Origin: Nitrosopumilus ureiphilus
GTDB taxonomy: Archaea > Thermoproteota > Nitrososphaeria > Nitrososphaerales > Nitrosopumilaceae
Assembly (NCBI RefSeq): GCF_013407185.1
Contig: NZ_CP026995.1
Span: forward strand, 186,001-250,000
Length of the DNA stretch: 64,000 bases
Reading direction: 5' to 3'
Below are positions 15,925 to 40,835 of this stretch, one piece after another (within the stretch, counting starts at the first letter, position 1; the number at the start of each line of letters is the position of its first letter). The position numbers were made by a program, and so were the translations under genes. The notes under the pieces are model-generated. The model was not told where the DNA came from and ran no database searches. It saw nothing but the letters and a program-made list of their open reading frames with translations.

Positions 15925-18048
15925 ATGAAATGTTTTCTCTTCGTTTTAATTTTATTTATGGTCTCATTCTCGCTAATCAATGATGCATCTGCAGTCTGTT
16001 GTTTTCCTTATGAGATAACACACTACATAGATCCTGAAACAGGGTATTTGATAATTGAAGGACAGTTGTGGAATGATTCCTATAGGGGAGAACCCTTTGG
16101 AACTGTCAACTATCAGTTTCAGTTCTTTGATTCTGAACGTAATGTACTTTTTGAAAGAGATATTTCATTGACGAACGGACTGCCAATTAATGGCGGCTTT
16201 GTGATTCCTCCTGGAGTTGCTTTGCCATTTCACATAGTAATTGATGATGTTGATGAAGAAATAATCCAGAAGATACGCTCTGTTAGCAGTGGAGGTAACA
16301 ATGTGCTAGAATATTTTTCATGGAAGCCTGCAGATCTTAAAATCAAATTTGACCATCTCGAAAAAGTTGCAATAATACATGACTCCAAAAACCAAGACAT
16401 TTTCTACAAGTGGAAAATAAGCGGAACCATAACAAACGCACACTCTGAAAAAGCTCACGATGTCTATGTGACGGCAAGTCTTTTGGAAGGAGAATATGGA
16501 TTTTTAGGAACAGCGGGTTATTCTAAAGATGATATTCATCCTTTGGTTTTAGATGGATTTGAGACAAAAGATTTTGTAATTTATTCAATATTGCCAAAAG
16601 ACAAGACTCCAGACAATGTTAGCCTTTATGCAGAATCAAGCATATCTTCAATGATCCATCAACGCTACAAGCCAATTATTCTAAAAAACATAATAGACTA
16701 TGAGGGTAGAGTTGCATCTGATCCAAAAAAGCCGATTCTAATTTCTGCAAATGTCACAAACATATCTCGTGAAAATTTTGATCTTGACTGGATGATCCAG
16801 ATAAAAAAATCCCCAAAGAGTATCGCTGAAGGTGATATGACAAAATATCCTGAAAGCAAAGTCGAATTCATAAAAAAAATACCCGTACATATTGATGGGC
16901 AAAAAAGCGTGTTACTAGAATACCCGTGGATTCCGCAGTCCGGCGGAATCTATTTTTATGAGATGTATCTTTGGAATGGTTACAATCCAGTCTCTTATCC
17001 ATTTACTGGTAATTTTTTTTCACAAGGTGAGATGTTTGTAAGTCACAATCTGTATTCCATAAAAAATCAAATAAACTCAGGAACTCCTCTTGATGAGCTT
17101 GTATGTAGAGAAGGATTGAAGTTGGTACACATGGCAAGAAATGCAAATCTTGTATGTGTAAAATACGAATCAATTCCAAAATTGATTGAAAGAGGATGGA
17201 TTATTACAAATCATGAAGACACATCCTTTGAAATAATCACCCCCGAATCCACATTTGCAACATTTTATGTACAACCCCAAATTACTAGTGTCATCCTCAA
17301 ACAAGATAGTACAATACGTATTCATCTTTTCTCATACATCAAAGAATCTGATGAATGGGATATGGTTTTTGACAGAATATTTGATAAAGTTCCAAAAAAT
17401 TTCAAGATTGGGATAGTTGAAAATACTCCAGAGAACATAAATGAGTTTGTCACACTAGGAAAAGAGAATCTCCCATCAGGAATTAATATAGAATTATTAC
17501 GTGAGGGCGGATATTTTGTGGTTTATTTTACCTCAAACAAATCATTGGAACCTGGTAAATATGATTTGTCTATTGTTTCCGTAGACAAAGCAGGGACAGT
17601 AATTCAAAAACCATTATTTGTAATTGCTGTGAAAGCAGACACAACACCAACACAAAGCAATACAGTAAAAATATCTTACAATAAACATCCGTGGGGAATC
17701 AATTTAGAAAACATATCTGAACAAGAGTATTGGATTAGATCTGATAGGGTATTGCCTTCACCTCCTTCTCCAATATTGAATGTAACACAAGACAACATTC
17801 ATCCGGATGTACAAGAGTTAATTGATCTCATGTGGTCACAAGATACAAAATATGTTCCATCAGAATATGATAAAAAAATATTGCTAGCAGAAAATGAAAC
17901 CAACTTAAAAATGGATCCTCAAAAAATAAGGAATTGGTTAGAAACCACATATGTTCAACAGTTCAAAAGAAATTTAGATGATTCTTATAGTAACTACATT
18001 AGATATGATGGTAAAATTTACTCCTTTGGATTTGTTATTGCAGATTGA
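15925..18048 (+). CDS. Large exported thaumarchaeal protein
   Basis: The 707-residue product starts with a signal peptide (residues 1-23, cut near DASA-V) and then C-C-F-P. The body is beta-rich and looks like repeated immunoglobulin-like folds. Around residues 388-425 a segment with C-R-E-G-L-K-L-V and then L-V-C-V-K resembles the short Cys-containing module found in other thaumarchaeal exported proteins. It has no C-terminal anchor. It is likely a cell-surface or secreted protein; the exact role is unknown. Confidence 0.75.
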   Translation: MKCFLFVLILFMVSFSLINDASAVCCFPYEITHYIDPETGYLIIEGQLWNDSYRGEPFGTVNYQFQFFDSERNVLFERDISLTNGLPINGGFVIPPGVALPFHIVIDDVDEEIIQKIRSVSSGGNNVLEYFSWKPADLKIKFDHLEKVAIIHDSKNQDIFYKWKISGTITNAHSEKAHDVYVTASLLEGEYGFLGTAGYSKDDIHPLVLDGFETKDFVIYSILPKDKTPDNVSLYAESSISSMIHQRYKPIILKNIIDYEGRVASDPKKPILISANVTNISRENFDLDWMIQIKKSPKSIAEGDMTKYPESKVEFIKKIPVHIDGQKSVLLEYPWIPQSGGIYFYEMYLWNGYNPVSYPFTGNFFSQGEMFVSHNLYSIKNQINSGTPLDELVCREGLKLVHMARNANLVCVKYESIPKLIERGWIITNHEDTSFEIITPESTFATFYVQPQITSVILKQDSTIRIHLFSYIKESDEWDMVFDRIFDKVPKNFKIGIVENTPENINEFVTLGKENLPSGINIELLREGGYFVVYFTSNKSLEPGKYDLSIVSVDKAGTVIQKPLFVIAVKADTTPTQSNTVKISYNKHPWGINLENISEQEYWIRSDRVLPSPPSPILNVTQDNIHPDVQELIDLMWSQDTKYVPSEYDKKILLAENETNLKMDPQKIRNWLETTYVQQFKRNLDDSYSNYIRYDGKIYSFGFVIAD

Positions 18049-40115: not shown

Positions 40116-40493
40116 ATGAACAGTATTATTCTATTAGTAGAAGATGATACAGATTTAATTTCAATCTATAAAGAAATTCTAGAATTATATGGATATGAAC
40201 TTCAAACTGCAGTTAATGGAGAAGAGGCAGTTGAAAAATTCAAACAAGTTAACCCATCTTTAGTTATAATGGATGGAGATATGCCAGTACTTGATGGGTA
40301 TGAAGCCTTTAAGCAAATCAAAGAGATTGATAAAAATGCTAAAGTAGTCATTGTAACTGGCTATTCTCAACTTGAACCAAAAAATCAAGAAGCGGTAAAA
40401 GAAGGGTTAATCAAAGTAATTTCAAAACCATTAGGAGTAGATGAATTAATCTCTCTTGCACAACAATACACCAAAGCTGAAATTAAAACATAA
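40116..40493 (+). CDS. Single-domain response regulator (CheY-like)
   Basis: This 125-residue receiver has no output domain. Acidic pocket ILLVEDDTD, phospho-acceptor Asp in VIMDGDMPV, Thr in VIVTGYS and Lys in VISKPLG are all present. It is divergent from the histidine kinase at 38186 with 163 bp between the starts, so it is probably its phosphorylation target. Output must go through protein contact. Confidence 0.9.
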   Translation: MNSIILLVEDDTDLISIYKEILELYGYELQTAVNGEEAVEKFKQVNPSLVIMDGDMPVLDGYEAFKQIKEIDKNAKVVIVTGYSQLEPKNQEAVKEGLIKVISKPLGVDELISLAQQYTKAEIKT

Positions 40494-40510
40494 TTTTTTC
40501 AAAATTAAAA

Positions 40511-40615
40511 CAACGAGAAATACTTGGAAAACATACGAATCTAGGAACGATTGGTATAACATGAATTGTTTTCCAAACCTATTATTCTACTACGCAGAAT
40601 AATGGCTTCTCGTTG
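40511..40615 (-). ncRNA. Multi-stem structured RNA with TATA box
   Basis: Four nested stems fill 105 nt: P1 CAACGAGAA/TTCTCGTTG, P2 TTGGAAAAC/GTTTTCCAA, P2a ATACGAATC/GATTGGTAT with one mismatch and a 7-nt loop, and P3 ATTATTCT/AGAATAAT with a 7-nt loop. P1 closes a three-way junction. TAATATTTAA at 40633-40642 puts a minus-strand start at about 40,615, exactly at P1, and a T-rich tract follows its 3' end. No coding ORF overlaps. The family is unknown to me. Confidence 0.6.
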
Positions 40616-40679
40616 TAGTTACTATGTCAAAATAATATTTAACTTTGATCTGGATTTTTACCTGTGCTGACAAACAGAA

Positions 40680-40778
40680 CTATTTTCTAAAAAGCATCCA
40701 AATTCTAGAACCAACAAAAATTCCAACAGCTGCTATGATTAGTACTACCATCACTGTTTGTCCTGTATTTTCTTCCAT
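40680..40778 (-). CDS. 32-residue single-helix membrane microprotein
   Basis: The ORF reads MEENTGQTVMVVLIIAAVGI and on through F-V-G-S-R-I-W-M-L-F-R-K, one membrane helix with an acidic start and basic end. Its start faces the acetyltransferase start at 40836, 57 bp away. The gene could be a small membrane peptide or part of a larger complex. Confidence 0.5.
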   Translation of the reverse strand: MEENTGQTVMVVLIIAAVGIFVGSRIWMLFRK

Positions 40779-40835
40779 GTTCCTCTGAGTAATTTGTATC
40801 AAGCAGTTCTTAAAGTATAATGAAATAATCTATAC

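Follow-up and report, generated by a model that had tools for sequence, protein, structure and literature searches.

Positions 40511 to 40616 of the window (the entire 64,000-nucleotide stretch of the Nitrosopumilus ureiphilus genome analyzed here) almost certainly contain a genuine small RNA (sRNA) gene on the minus strand, encoding a structured RNA of about 105 nt that folds into a three-way junction. The structure is conserved in one family of marine ammonia-oxidizing archaea and specific to a single strand, the RNA is likely to act in trans, and the reading as a whole, a free-standing, trans-acting structured sRNA gene with the mechanism proposed below, is probable. The gene was previously uncatalogued, and Rfam 15 is without a family for it.

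When the minus strand of positions 40511-40615 was refolded, the minimum free energy was −34.8 kcal/mol, compared to a mean of −14.8 kcal/mol for dinucleotide-shuffled sequences (z = −6.84; reached in 0 of 200 shuffles). Among 400 other 105-nt minus-strand segments of the window, the most extreme z was −4.5, short of the value for the RNA; two low-z background segments are located at positions 16481 and 48001. A preliminary description of this DNA had placed four stems in a three-way junction on the minus strand here and considered them unlikely to have arisen by chance; all four were present on refolding, and the fold lies beyond all 400 background segments. One of them, a hairpin then called P3 (P2 in the present nomenclature; the former P2 and P2a are P3 and P3a here), exists but is larger than the 8 bp and 7-nt loop assigned to it, with 13 pairs, one bulge and a loop of 3 nt if the conserved G-U and C-G closing pairs form. 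The plus strand of the same positions folds nearly as well (z = −6.25) because the stems are inverted repeats, so that the strand cannot be fixed from one sequence. Covariance model R1 matches the locus at C1:226505-226616 with 110.3 bits, a span that includes part of the downstream T tract. The features of the locus are as follows.

40646-40650, minus strand: upstream promoter element GATCA (92-100% conservation per position in 90 homologues)
40635-40642, minus strand: TATA box TTAAATAT (first seven positions 98-100% conserved)
40623-40633, minus strand: element ATTTTGACRTA between the TATA box and the start (most positions 83-100% conserved)
40511-40616, minus strand: structured small RNA of about 105 nt with a three-way junction, 5' end at about 40616 (fold z, model match and covariation)
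40607-40615, minus strand: 5' strand of P1 (CAACGAGAA); helix 1 cells 97.1% paired, with two-sided changes such as G-C to A-U
40577-40606, minus strand: P2 hairpin, 40594-40606 with 40577-40590; two-sided changes in 7 of the 10 upper-stem pairs
40586-40598, minus strand: near-invariant P2 tip UCUGCGUMGUAGA, with a G-U tip pair
40567-40576, minus strand: 5' strand of P3 (TTGGAAAACA); two-sided changes in 7 of 9 pairs
40557-40564, minus strand: near-invariant, mostly unpaired UCAUGUUA inside P3, a likely contact site
40534-40556, minus strand: P3a, the terminal helix of P3, lineage-specific in sequence, 40549-40556 with 40534-40541
40524-40533, minus strand: 3' strand of P3 (TGTTTTCCAA), partner of 40567-40576, with covariation
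40511-40519, minus strand: 3' strand of P1 (TTCTCGTTG), partner of 40607-40615, with covariation in the 95-sequence alignment
40501-40510, minus strand: T-rich tract (TTTTAATTTT) 3' of P1, a likely terminator; TTTT directly follows P1 in about 77-83% of homologues

The preliminary description had proposed a search for compensatory changes in the stems, and these were abundant. In alignment A3 (95 sequences; mean pairwise identity 71%, minimum 48%), 93.7% of pair cells are paired and 18 of the 29 pairs show changes on both sides, with 136 two-sided cells observed compared to 28.8 in shuffled alignments; none of 500 shuffles reached the observed value for any of five measures. When partners were shifted by 1-3 columns, pairing in A3 dropped to 38-61%. 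A3 was aligned to model R1 and is, accordingly, biased towards the structure, but A1, a MAFFT alignment made without structural information, shows the same pattern, with the 29 pairs formed in 95.5% of cells and two-sided changes in 13 pairs. Approximate trees, one of them built from unpaired columns only, gave an estimate of about 53-65 compensatory events. There are 371 G-U cells vs. 33 A-C cells; because a G-U pair reads as A-C on the other strand, this large excess identifies the structured molecule as the minus-strand RNA.

Upstream of the RNA, alignment of 90 regions on the TATA box revealed a promoter of the form GATCA-N3-TTAAATAT-N-ATTTTGACGTA with fixed spacing, followed by about 6 variable bases before P1; beyond GATCA, conservation drops, save for weak preferences at about −18 to −12 relative to the TATA box. 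In archaeal promoters, the start site lies about 22-27 nt after the TATA box, so transcription is predicted to start at P1. In 82 of 91 homologues, 26 nt separate the start of the TATA box from that of the model, and a start exactly at P1, as originally put forward, thus holds to within a base or two; the TATA-like box itself, first read as 40633-40642, is real and occupies 40635-40642, and the T-rich tract noted after the RNA is indeed present. With two mismatches allowed, the promoter pattern has about one match per genome, which nearly always falls at the RNA or at a short relative, and the control gave few matches; relaxed matches in the genome of N. ureiphilus were no commoner than in the control. 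The possibility that this is a general promoter of stable RNAs was rejected, the motif being absent from the three tRNA genes of the window. On the same strand upstream of the promoter, at 40685-40779, a short frame below the cut-off of the open reading frame list could, read by eye, specify a membrane peptide some 30 residues long (MEENTGQTVMVVLIIAAVGIFVG...).

P1, P2 and P3 are kept across genera. The P3a helix is retained as well, with at least 3 extra pairs inside P3 possible in 95 of 95 homologues, and its sequence changes from clade to clade: AGGA/UCCU and CGAAA/UUUCG are two versions, and the clade of the window alternates between UAC/GUA, UAG/CUA and UAA/UUA. The tip pair of P2 is G-U in 94 of 95 homologues, a constancy more in keeping with a contact to a protein, or with a tip that is not helical, than with an ordinary stem. 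Inside P3, UCAUGUUA has a per-position identity of 94-100%, and the neighboring loop positions are variable; its mean unpaired probability declines from 0.75 to 0.40 along its length, so that it is mostly unpaired in its 5' half. Such a sharply conserved unpaired stretch amid variable loop positions is likely to be a contact site. An AUG within UCAUGUUA opens frames of inconsistent length, and no conserved open reading frame runs over the RNA, so a protein-coding function was rejected, in line with the initial observation that no frame fits.

The mechanism that we propose starts with transcription of the RNA from its own promoter, which would be read by a dedicated transcription factor at GATCA and/or ATTTTGACGTA, and a predicted end at the T tract after P1. 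The absence of a general flank and of a conserved long reading frame speaks for a gene of its own, the product of which would act in trans. More tentatively, P1 and the junction may form a scaffold, with the P2 tip serving to anchor a protein, and recognition may take place at the exposed UCAUGUUA in P3, most likely by pairing with target mRNAs, whose translation or stability would change as a result.

A search for such targets with MTAACATGAW, the complement of UCAUGUUA, found 34 sites in the genome of N. ureiphilus, including the one in the gene itself, vs. 36 for the reversed control. Four open reading frame starts in this genome coincide with the motif, and two of the four were traced across genomes. 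The best start-codon site is that of the proteasome alpha gene, where the full TAACATGA motif is kept in 3 of 12 genomes; for another frame with the motif at its start, which looks OsmC-like by eye, orthologues turned up in no more than 2 of 11 genomes. As the loop complement is not enriched and the proteasome alpha site is poorly kept, no pairing target is supported. Action by base pairing through UCAUGUUA is, therefore, put forward tentatively, as a possibility somewhat short of an even chance, and a protein scaffold is its main rival. Three ATAACATGAT sites (L289-L291, at about G000:C1:1762815-1762983, minus strand) belong to a gene for a repetitive protein rich in methionine and asparagine, and the repeats stem from the coding sequence.

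According to this rival explanation, the RNA has a structural function, as a scaffold or guide at the core of a ribonucleoprotein; its invariant loops would bind proteins, and it would not regulate mRNAs by pairing. Its invariant parts are found in a hairpin tip as well as in an internal loop, the near-constant G-U of the tip is what a protein-binding site would lead one to expect, the promoter shows strong conservation, no pairing target emerged, and a shorter relative (see below) retains the junction and the promoter with other loops. However, the RNA is missing from some lineages of the genus, which would be unusual for a housekeeping RNA, and the promoter appears to be specially regulated rather than generic. 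Furthermore, C/D boxes (RUGAUGA, CUGA) and an ACA tail with a kink-turn are absent, by inspection, from the conserved positions of A1 and A3, and the guide-RNA families of Rfam gave no match. On balance, we consider a purely structural role less likely than not.

The genomic neighborhood bears on a second alternative, namely, that the RNA is a cis-acting leader or riboswitch for a downstream gene on the minus strand, for which its compact junction and invariant loop sequences would be suitable. Across the 95 loci, the flanking genes (named from reading their sequences) form many different sets, and there is no general flank: a response regulator and an acetyltransferase in the clade of the window, a region with an aspartyl-tRNA synthetase, in one genus a citrate-synthase-like gene, and numerous unique sets. 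The downstream gene varies by lineage and in many cases runs opposite to the RNA, as does the response regulator that comes next on the side of the RNA in the window, and a conserved same-strand gene was not found at these loci; in addition, the T tract directly follows P1. Because the flanks vary between lineages, the presence of the two-component neighbors is coincidental and a role in cis is unlikely; a leader or riboswitch is, in our estimate, very improbable. The association with the two-component pair that had been suggested at the outset, accordingly, does not hold, other neighbors being present at most homologous loci.

The preliminary description had also proposed that a covariance model be used to search related genomes for conservation, and the RNA turned out to be widespread. 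A BLASTN search with positions 40490-40660 of the window matched 65 of 95 genomes of the genus (E ≤ 0.01), and a first covariance model, from the 73 homologues of A1, matched 68 of the 95 together with 21 further genomes in four other genera of the family (E ≤ 0.01); the 68 include G061 by a short relative only, and G129, G138 and G143 with weak matches. In genome G006, the RNA lies at C1:630613-630723 on the minus strand. A second model, R2, built from 95 homologues, matched 83 genomes in a sample of 400 from the order (5 of 66 genera) and likewise 83 in a sample of 400 from the class (5 of 82 genera), all matches falling inside the same family. The named genomes with pattern matches are labeled Nitrosopumilus, Nitrosomarinus, Nitrosopumilaceae, Nitrosopumilales, Thaumarchaeota and uncultured archaeon. 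Some complete genomes of the genus, such as G094, gave no match to the RNA model, so the RNA is not essential genus-wide. Two candidate second copies in the genome of the window were rejected, an 85%-identical 33-nt match at C1:993459 in which the structure is not formed and a 15-bit model match at C1:119109 that lacks the promoter and junction.

Varied gene contexts and the presence of 2-4 copies in a few genomes (two in G036 and G093) would fit a DNA element, be it the end of a mobile element, a MITE-like repeat or a recombination site, with the stems as inverted repeats. This explanation is highly improbable, given that tolerance of G-U but not of A-C makes sense only for a one-strand RNA, that the promoter outside the stems is conserved, and that most complete genomes carry a single copy; viral carriage was rejected as well, there being no match among the IMG/VR viral contigs. 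A chance fold in an AT-rich spacer, conceivable when a single sequence was at hand, is refuted by the conservation and covariation in 95 homologues and can be dismissed.

The initial proposal of an independent small RNA gene, possibly of a new family, with its transcription as a prediction, is thus borne out by conservation, covariation, the co-conserved promoter and the lack of an Rfam match: none of the 4227 models of Rfam 15 reached its gathering threshold in the window or at seven homologous loci, the best sub-threshold matches having E of about 9. ARAGORN found no tRNA or tmRNA at the RNA, and only three tRNAs elsewhere in the window. No published description of the RNA was found in the open-licence literature on archaeal and thaumarchaeal sRNAs; unnamed sightings in other papers, such as metatranscriptome studies, are conceivable. 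Among characterized archaeal sRNAs, sRNA154 of Methanosarcina mazei is trans-encoded, has its expression confined to nitrogen deficiency and stabilizes the nifH, glnK1 and glnA1 mRNAs (PMC11549558), and sRNA162 of the same organism targets mRNAs via two domains (PMC3510493). The RNA described here resembles both in being a free-standing intergenic sRNA gene with probable action in trans; it differs in belonging to another lineage, with no known sequence match, and in being a prediction from sequence. Thalassoarchaea ncRNA 1 (Tan1) of marine Euryarchaeota, an abundant, structured RNA of 229 nt with six homologues, was predicted from an alignment (PMC5069720); both are structured non-coding RNAs of marine archaea predicted in this way, whereas the present RNA, with about 105 nt and 95 aligned homologues, comes from another phylum.

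A shorter class, of 84 nt, shares the promoter start (GATCAAACTTAAATATTTTTT), P1 and the junction with the RNA of the window and carries different loops. Six examples are as follows.

L158, 2001-2084, plus strand
L160 and L161, 2002-2085, minus strand
L224, 1535-1618, plus strand
L252, 1035-1118, plus strand
L253, 911-994, minus strand

Model R3, made from six members, matched 21 of the 95 genus genomes, in many cases ones that also carry the full-length RNA at another locus; covariation within the class is slight (two pairs, six sequences). In genome G041, about 400 nt separate the two classes, which share a strand (L152, 2001-2112 and 2501-2599, minus strand). In other genera, diverged RNAs retain P1 (AACGAGGA) and P3 (GGAAAAC/GTTTTCC) and differ in their loop sequences, a hint of a wider scaffold family.

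L129, 2001-2113, minus strand
L130, 2001-2113, plus strand
L126, 2001-2103, minus strand
L128, 2001-2103, plus strand

These relatives may be true paralogues or convergent scaffolds. A speculative extension, which we consider less likely than not, is that the 105-nt, 84-nt and diverged neighboring-genus forms belong to one lineage-specific superfamily of RNAs with a three-way junction, united by a dedicated promoter and a common P1/junction scaffold and differing in their invariant loops. Such a superfamily would be an sRNA regulon or ribonucleoprotein system unique to ammonia-oxidizing archaea, with one transcription factor as its switch.

Few cells in the ocean are as abundant as ammonia-oxidizing archaea, and no trans-acting sRNA of this group was found to be described in the open-licence papers searched. 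A covarying, promoter-bearing RNA present in complete genomes provides a concrete handle on post-transcriptional control in these organisms, and its nearly exclusive promoter motif can serve as bait for the transcription factor that reads it.
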